From Chitinophagaceae bacterium C216 (GTDB lineage: Bacteria; Bacteroidota; Bacteroidia; Chitinophagales; Chitinophagaceae), in assembly GCA_028485475.2 (NCBI GenBank), contig CP144143.1, positions 1,054,001-1,118,000 of the forward strand: a stretch of DNA of 64,000 nucleotides. Direction: 5' to 3'. Each line of letters opens with the position of its first letter. Position 1 is the first letter of the stretch. Positions 2,108 through 25,301 of the stretch are shown here, in pieces. Position numbers and translations under genes: made by a program. The notes beneath the pieces are model-generated. The model worked only from the letters and a program-made list of their open reading frames with translations. It did not search any database and was not told where the DNA came from.

Positions 2108-2515
2108 ATGCTTACCAAAAAATCTCAATATGCATTCAAGGCACTTACTTATCTTGCTGAAAGGCAACAGAAAGGGCCTGTTTTGATTTCGGAAATTGCT
2201 GAAAAGAAGAAAATACCGTTAAAGTTTCTAGAAAACATCCTGCTGGAGTTAAAAAGAGCGGATATTCTCGATAGTAAAAAAGGGAAAGGAGGGGGATATT
2301 TTTTTAAAGTAGATCCCGCCTCAGTTAAGATGACGAGGATCATCCGTTTGATTGATGGTCCTATTGCAATGCTACCCTGTGTTAGTCTCAACTTTTATGA
2401 GCGATGTAAAAATTGCGATGAAAAGCATTGCGGGTTGCATGATATTATGAAGCAGGTGCGTGATGCTACTTTAGCCATTCTTGAAAATAGAACATTAGCC
2501 GATTTGAAAGATTAA
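2108..2515 (+). CDS. Rrf2-family transcriptional regulator
   Basis: A 135-residue protein with the Rrf2 winged helix: the N-terminal KKSQYAFKALTYLAE helix, an IAEKKKIPLKFLENILLELK recognition region (residues 30-49) and the GKGGGYFF wing (60-66). Rrf2 proteins sense Fe-S clusters, nitric oxide or cysteine status. Here Cys91, Cys100, Cys103 and Cys108 sit where IscR-type members carry three cluster ligands, so a redox or Fe-S sensing role is plausible. It follows the CDF gene by 29 bases. A palindrome lies 41 bases downstream, and dyads at the sulfur-cluster promoters 9 and 20 kb away are candidate targets. The target set is inference. Confidence 0.88.
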   Translation: MLTKKSQYAFKALTYLAERQQKGPVLISEIAEKKKIPLKFLENILLELKRADILDSKKGKGGGYFFKVDPASVKMTRIIRLIDGPIAMLPCVSLNFYERCKNCDEKHCGLHDIMKQVRDATLAILENRTLADLKD

Positions 2516-11721: not shown

Positions 11722-11771
11722 AGAAGGTTAAAAAAATATGTCCAAACGAGCCGTCTTTTTGCCATAATACT

Positions 11772-11810
11772 CTACCAACTTGGTGGGTTTTGAAAAATGA
11801 ATTATATTTG
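11772..11810 (+). promoter_or_regulatory. Promoter with operator-like dyad for the peroxiredoxin/cys operon
   Basis: TTG at 11780-11782 and TATATTTG at 11803-11810, separated by 20 bases, match the Bacteroidota TTG/TAnnTTTG promoter. Transcription would start near 11816, about 20 bases before the peroxiredoxin ATG. The dyad CTACCAA-C-TTGGTGG (11772-11786, one mismatch) covers the -33 element. The same architecture is present at 22444-22482, suggesting a common regulator. Confidence 0.65.
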
Positions 11811-20827: not shown

Positions 20828-22423
20828 TTGAATAGGGAAAAAGAAAATACCCCTGCTGCACAAGCAGAACAAGCGGAGCATCGTGCTTCGCAGAATACCC
20901 TTTTTCCCGTGTTTTTAAAACTGGAAACATTAAATCTGCTAATTATCGGTGGAGGAAATGTAGCGCTTGAAAAGTTACAGGCAGTTCTTCAAAATGCTCC
21001 CGCAACGCGCATAAGACTAGTAGCTATCGATATTGCTCCTATGGTACGCGAGTTTGCTGCATCATTCCCTAATATAGTTCTAGAGCAGCGACCTTACCTT
21101 AAAGAGGATATACAACAAACAGATTTGGTAATTGCAGCTGTAAACGATCTGGATGTTGCGGCTCAAATTCGAGAAGATGCGGCTGATTGCGGAAAGCTGA
21201 TAAACATTGCTGATAAGCCCGAGCTCTGTGATTTTTATCTAGGCTCCATCGTAAAGAAAGGTAATTTGAAAATCGCCATATCCACCAACGGGAAATCTCC
21301 TACAATTGCAAAGCGGCTGAAAGAAACCCTAAATGAGGCAATTCCCGAAGAGATTGACGAGGTGTTGGATAATATGCAGCAGCTACGCAATCGATTATCT
21401 GGCGATCTTAACCATAAGGTGAAAGTCTTAAATAATGTAACCCGTTCTTTAGTATCAAAGCCTCAGGAAGCATTGGACGCCTTGGAATCGGATGACAATG
21501 TAGCTACCGATGTGGTAAGTTCTACAGCAATTGTGGCTAAAGCGCAAAAGAGTACCAACTGGTACCTGATTATAATGGGTGTGGCCTTATTAATTGCTTT
21601 AAGCGTCTATGCCTTGTATTCTTTTGATTTGATGCTACCCATTCTGCAAGCATTGAATAAGGATAACCATATGTTTTACTGGATGCTGCTAACCGGCTTT
21701 TTGGCCGAAATTGTTGCAGGATCCATGGGTATGGGTTATGGAGTCATATGCACTACTATATTGCTGATGCTGAATGTTCCACCGCCTGTTGTTAGCGCCA
21801 GTATTCATTCTGCAGAGTCTTTTACTACCGCAGCAGGAAGTATCAGTCATATCAAATTGGGTAACGTCAATAAGAAATTGGTTAAGGCTTTGGCTATTCC
21901 CGCGGTTATTGGTGCCGTTATTGGTGCCATATTGCTCACTTACCTGGGAGAAAAATATGCTGTAATTATCAAACCATTTATTGCGGCCTATACTTTGTAT
22001 CTGGGTGTGCGTATTCTCATGAATGTTTTAAAACCTAAAAAAGAAGTAATCAAAAAGAACAAAACCTCAAAAGTTTCGTTGCTGGGTTTTGTAGGAGGTT
22101 TTATTGATTCATTTGGAGGAGGTGGTTGGGGGCCTTTGGTTACCGGTACCTTAATGAAAAATGGAAGAACCCCTCGATATGTAGTAGGAAGCTCTACGGT
22201 GGCCAAGTTTATTCTTACCGTTACGAGTGCTATCACTTTTATATTTACCATCGGTGTTCAGCACTGGAATATTGTTGCAGGACTGCTGATAGGAGGAATC
22301 ATTACGGCTCCTTTTTCTGCGATGCTTACCTCCAAGCTGCCAGCAAGAAAAATGTTTTTTGTTGTGGGCATAGTGGTGATCATTATGAGTATTATTACTA
22401 TTTATCGAGCCTTATTCCTATAA
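20828..22423 (+). CDS. Fusion of siroheme synthase (Met8/CysG N-terminal type) and TSUP/TauE transporter
   Basis: A single uninterrupted frame of 531 codons holds two modules. Residues about 30-215 match precorrin-2 dehydrogenase/sirohydrochlorin ferrochelatase: Rossmann loop GGGNVALEK at 41-49, and INIADKPELCDF with D129 where CysG carries its key aspartate. Residues about 243-531 form a membrane module with roughly eight helices and the glycine-rich TSUP (TauE/SafE) signatures AGSMGMGYG and GGFIDSFGGGGWGP. It starts with TTG three bases after the cysE stop; no ATG is near. The soluble half finishes siroheme synthesis. The membrane half probably moves sulfate, sulfite or another sulfur anion; direction is unknown. 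Confidence 0.88.
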   Translation: MNREKENTPAAQAEQAEHRASQNTLFPVFLKLETLNLLIIGGGNVALEKLQAVLQNAPATRIRLVAIDIAPMVREFAASFPNIVLEQRPYLKEDIQQTDLVIAAVNDLDVAAQIREDAADCGKLINIADKPELCDFYLGSIVKKGNLKIAISTNGKSPTIAKRLKETLNEAIPEEIDEVLDNMQQLRNRLSGDLNHKVKVLNNVTRSLVSKPQEALDALESDDNVATDVVSSTAIVAKAQKSTNWYLIIMGVALLIALSVYALYSFDLMLPILQALNKDNHMFYWMLLTGFLAEIVAGSMGMGYGVICTTILLMLNVPPPVVSASIHSAESFTTAAGSISHIKLGNVNKKLVKALAIPAVIGAVIGAILLTYLGEKYAVIIKPFIAAYTLYLGVRILMNVLKPKKEVIKKNKTSKVSLLGFVGGFIDSFGGGGWGPLVTGTLMKNGRTPRYVVGSSTVAKFILTVTSAITFIFTIGVQHWNIVAGLLIGGIITAPFSAMLTSKLPARKMFFVVGIVVIIMSIITIYRALFL

Positions 22424-22443
22424 AAATTTTTTAAATTATTATC

Positions 22444-22482
22444 CTACTAATTTTGTAGACTAATAATATTTCTTTATTTTTG
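22444..22482 (+). promoter_or_regulatory. Promoter with dyad upstream of the Cys-leader ORF and TonB receptor
   Basis: TTTTG (22451-22455) and TATTTTTG (22475-22482) are spaced by 19 bases and match both Bacteroidota promoter elements. The dyad CTACTAA-T-TTTGTAG (22444-22458, one mismatch between arms) lies over the -33 element, exactly as at the peroxiredoxin/cys promoter. Transcription would begin near 22488, about 15 bases before the leader ORF. Confidence 0.7.
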
Positions 22483-22502
22483 CCCTTCAAAATTTCAATA
22501 TC

Positions 22503-22583
22503 ATGTCTTCATTTCAACATGCAAGCAATAGGCTTTATCCTATGAATAGGAAACACGAATGGCGATGTTGTATGTGTTCCTGA
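22503..22583 (+). CDS. Putative 26-residue leader peptide with C-terminal Cys codons
   Basis: The first ATG after the promoter at 22475-22482 opens a 26-codon ORF that ends in WRCCMCS, with TGT codons 22, 23 and 25 just before the TGA. Three cysteine codons in the last five of a tiny ORF, in the leader of a receptor gene adjoining the cysteine-synthesis cluster, is the layout expected of a cysteine-sensing attenuation peptide. An AACTAA/TTAGTT hairpin (22586-22606) starts three bases after the stop codon, so a ribosome stalled on the cysteine codons would cover its first arm. Function is inferred; expression is untested. Confidence 0.55.
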   Translation: MSSFQHASNRLYPMNRKHEWRCCMCS

Positions 22584-22613
22584 ATAACTAAGCTTTTTAT
22601 TTAGTTTATTAGT

Positions 22614-22628
22614 CTACTGATTTTGTAG
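22614..22628 (+). repeat. Second CTAC-N7-GTAG dyad, inside the TonB-receptor leader
   Basis: CTACTGATTTTGTAG differs from the promoter-proximal copy at 22444-22458 by one base. As RNA, TCTAC/GTAGA could pair in a short stem followed by UUUU, a weak terminator-like element. As DNA it could be a second operator about 140 bases downstream of the start site, permitting looping or a roadblock. Confidence 0.5.
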
Positions 22629-22712
22629 ATTTTGCCGGATGAAAGAGGTCGGTACAGGGCTTCTTTGTCATAAAACGATCCAAAAATAAGAATCATCAAT
22701 AACTATATAACA

Positions 22713-25301
22713 ATGCGAATTAAACATTTGAAGAGTCTGTTTTTACTGCTAGGAAGTTTTTTGTACGGAGTATTGCATGCTCAATTGACAGGCAAAGTAA
22801 TTAATGAAAACAATAATCCTATTGAAGGAGCCAGTGTAGTGATCAAAGGAACCACTCAAGGTACACAAACCGATGCGAATGGCGTATTTACCTTATCGTC
22901 TGTTCCTAAAATTCCCTTTACGATAACCGTATCTTCCGTAAATTATACTACAAGAAATATATCAGTTAGAGAGTTGGAAGATACCCTCACTGTAAGGCTT
23001 CAGATTTTGTATCAAGTAGATACTTTAGTAATCACTTCTCGAAGAAGACGCGAATTACTGCAGGAAGTACCGATTGCAGTTTCGGTAGTAAGTGGTAAAC
23101 AAATTGATGAAGCTGGAGCTTTCAACATCACACGCGTTAAAGAAATGGTTCCTTCCTTGCAGATGTATACCTCCAATCCCAGAAACACGGGTATTAACAT
23201 CCGCGGCATAGGTTCTCCCTTCGGGCTTACCAATGATGGTTTAGATCCCGGTGTGGGTTACTATGTCGATGGGGTGTATTATGCAAGACCGGCCGTTGCT
23301 ACCCTAGATTTGATAGATATCGAGCGAATTGAAGTCTTGAGAGGTCCACAGGGAACACTATTTGGAAAAAACACAGCTTCGGGTGCCATTAACATTACTT
23401 CTCGCAAGCCCAGCTTTGTACCTGGAGGTACCCTGGAAGTAAGTTATGGTAACTATGGTTTTATACAAGCCAAAGCTTCTGTAACTGGACCTCTCACTCG
23501 AAATCTTGCTGCACGCGTTTCGTTCTCAGGTACCCAGCGAGATGGAACCATTCATAACATTGCCACAGATAAATACACTAATGACATCAATAACCTGGGT
23601 TTAAGAACGCAATTCCTATATAATGTTTCGGACAATACATCGGTTACGCTGGCCGGAGAGTACAACAAGCAAAGGCCTGATGGCTACGCTCAGGTTGTTG
23701 CCGGTGTAGTAACTACAAAACGTCCGGCATATAGACAATTTGATGCCATAATTGCCGATTTGGGTTATACATTACCCAATATAAATAAGAACGGTAAGAT
23801 CGATGCCTTTATGCGCGTAATTGATCATGATACTCCATGGAACTCCGGAAATGAAATTGGTGGCGCATCATTGAATATCGATAGTAAAATTGGCCCCGGA
23901 ACACTTACAGCCACTACCGCATGGAGATACTGGATTTGGGAACCCTCCAACGACCGCGACTTTACGGGCCTTCAAGCATTGGCTAAATCGCAAAACCCAG
24001 CCAAGCATAAAAATATCTCGCAGGAAATAAGATATGCTGGGGAATTATCAGATCGCTTGAGTGGTGTGATTGGTTTATTTTATCTAGGACAACAGGTAAA
24101 AATAACCGGTACCGAAGAGTCGGGTAGAGATCAATGGCGATTCTCTCAAAGTTCTAATAGCGATTTATGGAAGACTCCCGGCTTGTTTGATGGCTATGGT
24201 ATAAACACCAATTCTTCCATTCGCTCCAAAAGTGCGGCGGTATTTGCCAACGTAGATTGGGAGCTTATTAAGCACCTGCATTTGCAACCCGGTATCCGCC
24301 TTAACTACGATGAAAAAGTGGTAGTATATGATCGTAAAGCTTATGGAGGTTTGCAGACAGACGATCCTGCGCTGCTCGCTTTAAAGAATAGTGTGTATAC
24401 CAGTCAGTACTATGAATCGGACGCCTATGAACGCAACGTTACTTACAATGTTACGCTTGCATATCGTCCTTCTACTAAAATCAATGCCTACGGAACCTTT
24501 GCTACAGCTTATAAGCCGGTGGGGGTAAACGTGGCAGGCTTACCTACTATCAACGGTCAGCCAGCAACCGATTTAGCTGTCATTAAGCCAGAGTACACTA
24601 AGCATTTTGAAATAGGTATTAAAACACAGCCTACAGCAGATCTAACGTTCAATATATCTGCATATAACTCTAATATTAAAGATTATCAGACCAATGTACA
24701 GTCGCCTGAATTAGGTGTTAATAGAGGCTATATTGCAAATGCAAATAAAGTACGTATAAGAGGTATTGAGGCTGATGCTTCTTATAGGCTCAATCATCAT
24801 TTTAATTTTTACGGAGCCCTTACCTATTCCGAAGGGAAATATGTGAAATTTATCAATGCTCCTTTACCACTTGAGGAGACTGGAGCCACCAATGAAGAAG
24901 GTGTTCAAGTGGCATTCAAAGATGTTTCAGGTGGTCCGCTACCTGGTATTTCAAAATGGGCTGGCTCAGCCGGCGGTGAATATTCTACACCCTCAGCATT
25001 GTTTGGGCGCCCCAATAGGTTCTTTATAGGCGCTGATGTCTTTGCTCGTTCCTCTTTTTCTTCTAGTCCTTCTCCATCAGCGTTTTTAAATGTTCCGGGT
25101 TACGCCATCGTAAATGCACGGCTGGGCTTTAAAGCCACACGCGGACTGTCGGCCTTTGTATGGGCACGCAATCTGCTGAACAAAGATTACTTCGAGCAGT
25201 TGTTGCCCGCAGGAGGAAATGCCGGACATTATGCTGGTGTGTTGGGAGATCCACGCACTTACGGACTTACCTTAAGCTATTCTTTTAACGGTAAGCATTA
25301 A
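22713..25301 (+). CDS. TonB-dependent outer-membrane receptor
   Basis: An 862-residue protein: signal peptide (1-23), a carboxypeptidase-regulatory-like domain (24-95, GKVINENNNPIEGASVVIKGT), a plug domain (about 110-230, RGIGSPFG and IEVLRGPQGTLFGKNTASGAINI) and a 22-strand-type barrel ending in an aromatic-rich strand (YGLTLSYSF). It imports a scarce ligand using TonB energy. The plug and barrel resemble siderophore- or small-molecule-type receptors more than SusC. Its promoter dyad matches the cys operon promoter, which suggests a sulfur-containing ligand such as a sulfonate or sulfate ester. That ligand is inference. No SusD partner is adjacent. Confidence 0.9.
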   Translation: MRIKHLKSLFLLLGSFLYGVLHAQLTGKVINENNNPIEGASVVIKGTTQGTQTDANGVFTLSSVPKIPFTITVSSVNYTTRNISVRELEDTLTVRLQILYQVDTLVITSRRRRELLQEVPIAVSVVSGKQIDEAGAFNITRVKEMVPSLQMYTSNPRNTGINIRGIGSPFGLTNDGLDPGVGYYVDGVYYARPAVATLDLIDIERIEVLRGPQGTLFGKNTASGAINITSRKPSFVPGGTLEVSYGNYGFIQAKASVTGPLTRNLAARVSFSGTQRDGTIHNIATDKYTNDINNLGLRTQFLYNVSDNTSVTLAGEYNKQRPDGYAQVVAGVVTTKRPAYRQFDAIIADLGYTLPNINKNGKIDAFMRVIDHDTPWNSGNEIGGASLNIDSKIGPGTLTATTAWRYWIWEPSNDRDFTGLQALAKSQNPAKHKNISQEIRYAGELSDRLSGVIGLFYLGQQVKITGTEESGRDQWRFSQSSNSDLWKTPGLFDGYGINTNSSIRSKSAAVFANVDWELIKHLHLQPGIRLNYDEKVVVYDRKAYGGLQTDDPALLALKNSVYTSQYYESDAYERNVTYNVTLAYRPSTKINAYGTFATAYKPVGVNVAGLPTINGQPATDLAVIKPEYTKHFEIGIKTQPTADLTFNISAYNSNIKDYQTNVQSPELGVNRGYIANANKVRIRGIEADASYRLNHHFNFYGALTYSEGKYVKFINAPLPLEETGATNEEGVQVAFKDVSGGPLPGISKWAGSAGGEYSTPSALFGRPNRFFIGADVFARSSFSSSPSPSAFLNVPGYAIVNARLGFKATRGLSAFVWARNLLNKDYFEQLLPAGGNAGHYAGVLGDPRTYGLTLSYSFNGKH

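Follow-up and report, generated by a model that had tools for sequence, protein, structure and literature searches.

What controls an outer-membrane receptor gene whose short leader holds a run of cysteine codons and whose neighbors look like sulfur genes? The gene lies in a stretch of 64,000 nucleotides (referred to here as the window) that corresponds to G000:C1:1054001-1118000 of a single-contig genome. An initial annotation had described in front of it a 26-codon ORF ending in WRCCMCS, at whose TGT codons ribosomes would stall under cysteine shortage and thereby cover the first arm of an AACTAA/TTAGTT hairpin, with a TCTAC/GTAGA stem and UUUU further downstream. Based on the comparisons described below, this ORF (hereafter uORF) is probably a cysteine-sensing leader peptide that raises expression of the receptor and represents the second layer of a sulfur regulon. 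The conservation of a Cys-codon leader within a sulfur-linked regulon is strongly supported, and from the sequences we infer the translation of the uORF, cysteine as the signal, the direction of the effect and the identity of the regulator. In the proposed mechanism, the first layer of control would be a palindromic operator to which an Rrf2-type regulator probably binds, and a ribosome short of Cys-tRNA would pause on the Cys codons near the stop codon of the leader peptide, which would lead to higher expression of the receptor, probably an importer of a sulfur source.

The leader ORF and the palindromes around it

The ORF, its TGT codons (22566-22568, 22569-22571 and 22575-22577), a -7 box and both inverted repeats, AACTAA (22586-22591) with TTAGTT (22601-22606) and TCTAC/GTAGA (22613-22629) with the TTTT behind it, are all present where they had been placed (Table 1). 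From the position of the box, which we take to be of the Bacteroidota type, the uORF ATG, located 20 nt past the box end, would lie about 15 nt past the likely start site, in agreement with the initial annotation; this start site is predicted only, as are those of the 74/93 leaders with a box in which the box-to-ATG distance was 4-49 nt. Given the predicted start site, the window ORF does not have a leaderless layout (AUG at the 5' end), and its comparison with Pfam and NCBIfam gave zero matches.

Table 1. Features of the receptor locus and related elements in the window (PWM, score of the operator model)
Feature	Position	Strand	Details
Rrf2-family regulator	2108-2515	+	PF02082, E 5.5e-34; TIGR00738 above cut-off
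Weaker operator copy before the peroxiredoxin-cysH-cysD-cysN-cobA-cysJ-cysI-cysE run	11768-11790	+	PWM 14.3, fourth-best in the window
Siroheme-synthase N-terminal domain fused to TauE/SafE (TSUP) transporter	20828-22423	+	PF01925, PF13241, TIGR01470; just upstream
Operator 1 (putative), TATCCTACTAATTTTGTAGACTA	22440-22462	+	PWM 27.5 (window not used for the model); overlaps the presumed -33 region
-7 promoter box, TATTTTTG	22475-22482	+	From sequence; in 15/30 operator loci, TAnnTTTG follows the operator at the distance expected
Leader ORF (uORF), MSSFQHASNRLYPMNRKHEWRCCMCS	22503-22583 including stop	+	26 codons, C-terminal WRCCMCS; from sequence and comparison
Putative regulatory codons Cys-Cys-Met-Cys	22566-22577	+	From sequence and pairing prediction
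T-tract, TTTTTATTT	22594-22602	+	Separated from operator 2 by 9 nt (GTCTAC at 22612)
Operator 2 (putative), TAGTCTACTGATTTTGTAGATTT	22610-22632	+	PWM 26.4; the second stem of the initial annotation
TATATAACA before receptor ATG	22704-22712	+	Predicted partner of the Cys codons (arm 22566-22574)
TonB-dependent receptor (CarboxypepD_reg, Plug, beta-barrel)	22713-25301	+	PF00593, PF07715, PF13715

Upstream on the same strand lie genes for a peroxiredoxin, cysH, cysD, cysN, cobA, cysJ, cysI, cysE and the siroheme-synthase/TSUP fusion (cys names read from the translations), which together look like a sulfate-assimilation operon. The receptor is followed by a DUF5128 propeller, an outer-membrane-barrel protein, a further ORF and a metH pair, the latter likewise read from the translations. 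Its closest named relatives are receptors of Niabella (80-86% identity). Within the locus stretches examined, a TSUP relative was found at 18/80 and an Rrf2 relative at 13/80 named receptor loci. A comparison of the window with Rfam 15 gave no matches at gathering score.

The operator follows the consensus GTCTAY-N7-RTAGAC, with one copy upstream of the promoter and another after the uORF. The next-best score in the window after these two was 16.1, compared to a best score of 15.3 in the mononucleotide shuffle; the 16.1 site (58071) lies inside a long coding ORF resembling nrdB and was taken as a chance match, and given the shuffle score the copy at 11768 is not significant alone. In relatives the operator also precedes a peroxiredoxin (L228) and a tetrapyrrole methylase (L225). 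Elements of the operator 1 type precede the uORF at 32 sites outside Flavobacterium and 31 within it, and in several leaders that have no Cys uORF the palindrome stands directly before or after the -7 box. Since the TCTAC/GTAGA sequence is a second copy of the palindrome upstream of the promoter, it is probably a DNA operator, and its initial description as an RNA stem followed by UUUU is better replaced by this reading. An RNA hairpin at operator 2 was rejected because the half-sites vary in combinations unable to pair: non-pairing C..A combinations occur in 4/22 operator 2 sites, in 5/32 non-Flavobacterium and in 24/31 Flavobacterium operator 1 sites. The tract in front of operator 2 is itself a regular feature: 82-95% of 22 operator 2 sites have T at each of seven positions, from 18 down to 12 nt ahead of CTAY. 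At the corresponding positions in front of operator 1, the most frequent base is T in five cases (47-59%) and A in the other two. Among leaders with the arrangement of T-tract, spacer and palindrome, 24/28 carry a Cys uORF, and the arrangement precedes the uORF in two of the 24 (L155, L168).

CymR and IscR, members of the Rrf2 family, bind operators that govern sulfur and iron-sulfur regulons. The present palindrome resembles theirs in its 7-bp spacer and in having an Rrf2 gene nearby, but it differs in sequence (CTAY-N7-RTAG), and the Rrf2 protein of the window scores below the cut-off of both the IscR and the CymR equivalog models. The palindrome together with gene proximity suggests that these sites are probably bound by an Rrf2-type regulator, for which this protein is the candidate. 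It contains a Cys-rich segment, PCVSLNFYERCKNCDEKHC, which is possibly an iron-sulfur or thiol sensor.

Cysteine runs in the leaders of related receptors

Receptor loci for comparison came from 99 genomes (L013-L034 used), from searches of the phylum (25/395 at E<=1e-100) and the family (49/244, nearly all of the 49 read), from one genus (48/150, 30 of the 48 read) and from named contigs, where 80 receptor loci were kept of 125 relatives. The genus with 48 receptor places is taken to be Flavobacterium, as L202 is the contig of the named L059; L105 of this set is a Flavobacteriaceae MAG. Dropped before the counts were L054 and L065 (leader truncated), L035 (fragmented receptor gene) and L044, L052, L057, L119, L144 and L202, which are the same genomes as other rows, and L190 and L203, identical to others, were left out of the alignment only. 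Pairing tests covered 93 of 176 leaders, namely those with a uORF holding at least two Cys and a stop codon 25-170 nt before the receptor.

Absence of the Cys run from relatives had been named as grounds against the initial proposal. Instead, Cys runs recur in the orthologous receptor leaders of many genera: ATG-started uORFs with at least three Cys in six residues were present in 18/96 Bacteroidota leaders (250 nt), compared to 0.4 in dinucleotide shuffles, and those with at least two in 36, compared to 7.4 expected. The suggested search of related leaders for short Cys-clustered ORFs thus found them, also before other operator-linked genes. Among the remaining residues of the same 96 leaders, Met reached at least three in six residues in 8 (0.4 expected), and others exceeded expectation at most few-fold and with low counts (Ala 5 vs 1.1, Lys 13 vs 7.5, Gln 3 vs 0.8). 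Examples of the runs are YRTCCCRAFPGVSCCCG, YCSCCCNTYCSCGSA, ADARCCC, YGRCCCCNSTC, NRCCC and SIGCMMCMC. They recur without conservation of the remaining peptide and mostly adjoin the stop codon, the last Cys lying at most one codon from it in 20/38 non-Flavobacterium and 43/47 Flavobacterium uORFs. A Cys uORF (at least two Cys; ATG, GTG or TTG starts) was missing from 73/126 non-Flavobacterium leaders. In a Flavisolibacter leader (L092), a second, separate Cys-rich ORF ending in YTCCCCCCITTCC is found 406-301 nt before the receptor.

In the Flavobacterium set, a Cys uORF (at least two Cys in six residues; ATG, GTG or TTG starts) was present in 47/50 leaders read, and the other three hold one Cys. 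Of the 46 uORFs analyzed, 18 end in MCMCW and 8 in MCMC (by pattern), and their stop codons lie 45-59 nt before the receptor start with a single exception at 37 nt. Across 59 close pairs, the differences were spread evenly over the three codon positions (239, 281 and 284), and the 589 codon differences consisted of 83 synonymous and 506 nonsynonymous ones. This codon comparison gave no sign of protein-level constraint on the rest of the Flavobacterium peptide. The two other frames across the uORF span were open in 0 and 10 of 46, frame 0 being open by construction. That sulfur codons are kept and the peptide is free to vary is what would be expected of a codon sensor, contrary to a functional small protein.

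The same observations bear on a nascent-peptide metal sensor, in which Cys residues would bind copper and the codons would not sense cysteine. Its model, the CruR (bp2923) uORF before bfrG, is likewise a regulatory Cys-containing uORF in front of a TonB-dependent transporter; as far as the consulted part of PMC9426467 describes it, CruR is a DUF2946 protein that senses copper via CXXC and RAPP and uses Rho. The window ORF, by comparison, has neither a DUF2946 match, as expected from the empty Pfam and NCBIfam results, nor RAPP, and the printed peptides show no RAPP and no fixed Cys spacing. Considering also that the peptide is otherwise unconstrained, that the surroundings are sulfur genes and that Cys residues at the extreme C-terminus would still sit in the ribosome tunnel, we regard a metal sensor as very improbable.

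Besides the codons themselves, the nucleotides around them appear to be constrained. The Cys run is preceded by a CGA codon in 21/37 non-Flavobacterium cases and by another CGN codon in one, and the 8-mer CGATGTTG was found in 27/129 leaders (three of the 129 are from Flavobacterium), including the window (22563-22570) and two leaders with a single Cys codon before the stop (L026, L062). The 8-mer and the CGA preference point to selection acting on nucleotides too, which could reflect slow decoding of CGA or an RNA contact yet to be identified. If these conserved nucleotides, CGATGTTG and the MCMC region, acted solely as RNA or DNA, the uORF would not have to be translated at all, and the CGA bias as well as the Flavobacterium helix described below are compatible with this explanation. 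We nevertheless consider it improbable, as the in-frame Cys clusters vary in number and position, strong enrichment is limited to Cys and Met, and both Cys codons are used (TGT 205 vs TGC 81).

RNA structure and the output step

The RNA mechanism as initially stated was not upheld. The window leader folded no better than its shuffles (z -0.86; 35/200 shuffles equally good), AACTAA/TTAGTT was not seen on inspection of the relatives' printed leaders, an operator is the better interpretation of the second stem, and no terminator-like site was found in the window leader. In attenuators of the trp/his type, a short leader ORF contains regulatory codons that specify the amino acid in question. The leaders described here share such codons, but a terminator/antiterminator pair was not found. 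Classical transcription attenuation, in which stalling at the Cys codons favors an antiterminator over an intrinsic terminator as the initial annotation had proposed, would fit the position of the uORF, the tracts of at least six T after the uORF stop in 27/46 non-Flavobacterium leaders and the strong hairpin (-17.3 kcal/mol) before T6 in L064. However, a hairpin before the T-tract was detected at p<=0.1 in only 4/27 of these leaders and was lacking in 23/27, with the interrupted T-tract of the window falling outside the 27, and the conserved stem follows the T-tract and does not precede it. Intrinsic termination was therefore rejected as a general mechanism, and classical attenuation of the window receptor seems very improbable. 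A frameshift signal composed of T-tract and hairpin was dropped because the T-tract follows the uORF stop in the printed leaders.

In translational attenuators of the Erm type, the start region of the regulated gene is paired with codons of the uORF. A comparable pairing was predicted in Flavobacterium, where the uORF end pairs with a conserved sequence, ..TCTACTAAT(C/T)ACATATA.., and in several leaders with the receptor start codon. The helix had 16.7 expected pairs compared to 4.1 in shuffled sequences, with 46/47 leaders above the shuffled mean and 37/47 at p<=0.05; duplexes reached -20 kcal/mol, and cognate partners paired better than non-cognate ones (z -4.1, phylogeny uncontrolled). RNAalifold recovered a 5-pair helix from the Flavobacterium alignment with 4/220 cells broken and zero compensatory double changes, at a weak energy of -0.27 kcal/mol, for which inconsistent MAFFT gap placement is perhaps responsible. 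As none of the five pairs changed on both sides, support for the helix comes from energies and shuffles, without correction for phylogeny. These results suggest that the output step in Flavobacterium is most likely translational, the Met-Cys codons pairing with the receptor start and a paused ribosome freeing it.

Whether the same applies to the window is doubtful. Here, the predicted pairing is between the Cys codons UGUUGUAUG and UAUAUAACA, which lies in front of the receptor ATG, and a paused ribosome would unmask the start. In addition to the similar logic in Flavobacterium, this explanation draws on 17.4 expected pairs compared to 0.7 in shuffles (p 0.024) and on the presence of the helix in the minimum-energy fold of the leader. 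On the other hand, the duplex (-14.8 kcal/mol) had a shuffle p of 0.12, and the window leader is the one case among 46 from outside Flavobacterium at p<=0.05, which is no more than chance gives. The helix was not predicted in the nearest relatives tested (L014-L017, L019-L023), and the second Cys uORF of the genome had a p of 0.33. More generally, pairing between the Cys block and the start region outside Flavobacterium fell short of chance expectation (Wilcoxon p 5e-4, n 33), cognate pairing was no better than non-cognate pairing (p 0.88, n 46), the five operator-found leaders tested had no pairing excess (p 0.15-0.67), and the Cys block likewise showed no excess of pairing with either the spacer or the 5' portion of the uORF. 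By the shuffle test, a helix between uORF tail and gene start thus holds in Flavobacterium and was rejected as a general mechanism for the other leaders; the helix predicted in the window may represent a lineage-specific translational version.

Since the start-region helix is not common to the clade of the window, we tentatively favor for this clade an output step in which a repressor on operator 2 would hold RNA polymerase at the T-tract and the position of the ribosome would decide between release and elongation. When a bound protein stops RNA polymerase, the end of the RNA is set by the polymerase footprint, and judged from the general size of this footprint the RNA of a polymerase stopped at operator 2 would end near the T-tract. 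An alternative use of the same elements is a Rho-dependent switch like that of tnaC, where the ribosome stalls at the stop codon. A ribosome stalled next to the uORF stop would shield a Rho site, and otherwise the polymerase paused at the T-tract and operator 2 would be terminated. The frequent location of Cys codons by the stop (20/38), a C content of 25% compared to 11.5% G between stop and T-tract, and the fixed spacing of T-tract and operator are in line with such a switch. Yet this segment measures 0-30 nt and is shorter than 6 nt in 7/38 leaders, C does not exceed G in 14/38, and the last 25 nt before the receptor have an equal C>G bias. With a mere weak C>G bias between stop and T-tract, a Rho site was not accepted, and we consider the Rho-dependent explanation unlikely.

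Operator-linked leaders before other genes and relation to known systems

Searching with the operator alone matched 52/195 family genomes, compared to three for a reversed control pattern. By our own count, 50/73 of the operator places were read, 30 as loci and 20 by coordinates. Among the 15 of the 30 loci with a TAnnTTTG box, 11 had a uORF with at least two Cys (1.7 expected) and 8 one with at least three (0.23 expected); Arg (3 vs 0.13) and Tyr (2 vs 0.2) were likewise above expectation at the threshold of three. Three of the 11 (L209, L223, L231) are genomes whose receptor leader was also collected in the family search, and none belongs to the 96-leader count. A further 7 of the 20 extra places (L239, L241, L242, L246, L247, L250, L252) had an ATG-started Cys uORF beginning within 82 nt of the site, a count made without a shuffle control. 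Operator-linked Cys uORFs are followed, among others, by genes for SusC/TonB-type receptors (L206, L212, L214, L227 and L233, with L227 lacking the exact box) and for PhyH dioxygenases (L232, L234). L232 is the second combination of operator, promoter and Cys uORF (MRHSATYYFYISDMCCCIHIPVMCCR) in the genome of the window (L003:1497-1709, G000:C1 about 226567-226779), where it precedes a PhyH dioxygenase and a short-chain dehydrogenase-like ORF and is adjoined by a TSUP gene; at the third operator of this genome (L235), a Cys uORF was not found. Operator, promoter box and uORF hence form a unit that is placed before several gene families.

These units raise the question whether one sulfur sensor serves the whole regulon in Bacteroidota, with repressor and ribosome jointly deciding at operator 2 and the U-tract. 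The operator 2 repressor would stop the polymerase with the U-tract in the hybrid, where the ribosome on the Cys codons would arrive, and in Flavobacterium operator 2 would have been rebuilt into an RNA arm pairing with the Met-Cys codons, so that attenuation by a roadblock would have become attenuation of translation. We put this extension forward as speculation that is unlikely to hold.

Short ORFs with clustered Cys codons, sulfur-related genes downstream and cysteine-responsive attenuation are described for mycobacteria in the consulted portions of PMC9031893, PMC13236596 and PMC4633059, the first two of which cite the work on polycysteine leaderless ORFs (Canestrari 2020). To the extent that these portions describe them, the mycobacterial ORFs are similar in their clustered Cys codons (terminal in the case of cysA2), a sulfur-linked gene downstream and recurrence in relatives. 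In contrast to those leaderless ORFs, the Bacteroidota uORF is not located at the predicted 5' end, is tied to a palindromic operator that in one clade is duplicated and accompanied by a T-tract, precedes outer-membrane receptors, and in Flavobacterium mixes Met with Cys. A description of a Bacteroidota Cys-codon leader was not recognized in the open-licence literature, a scope that most subscription journals fall outside. The excerpts consulted mention attenuation by leader peptides ahead of operons for amino-acid biosynthesis in F. psychrophilum (PMC9723704) and short ORFs in B. thetaiotaomicron leaders (PMC7366714), both without cysteine detail. Our results would thus extend Cys-codon attenuation to another phylum and many of its genera, before outer-membrane receptors and dioxygenases, and they name a candidate sulfur operator for Bacteroidota as well as a testable substrate class, sulfur sources, for uncharacterized TonB/SusC receptors. 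According to the part of PMC6847099 consulted, the phylum does without Shine-Dalgarno sequences and profiling of F. johnsoniae indicated that structure at the start tunes initiation; the words uORF, leader peptide and cysteine are absent from its text. The leaders described here could serve as a model for leader-peptide control in bacteria without Shine-Dalgarno sequences.

Several minor features were observed at the operator-linked loci. In L206, L212, L214 and L227, a GC-rich inverted repeat (GCCGG..CAGCAG or CAACAG..CCGGC type, by eye) lies between the uORF and the SusC-type gene, and Rfam gave no match for this region in the four loci. In L205, a GTG-started Cys uORF (..NRCCCRQATY), noticed by eye and outside the ATG-only counts, is located about 50-110 nt after the operator and precedes a PhyH dioxygenase. 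The comparison of nine further loci with Rfam 15 gave one match, a SAM riboswitch (RF00162, 70 bits, L234:2911-3023) at the far end of the Cys-uORF dioxygenase locus L234, outside the leader.
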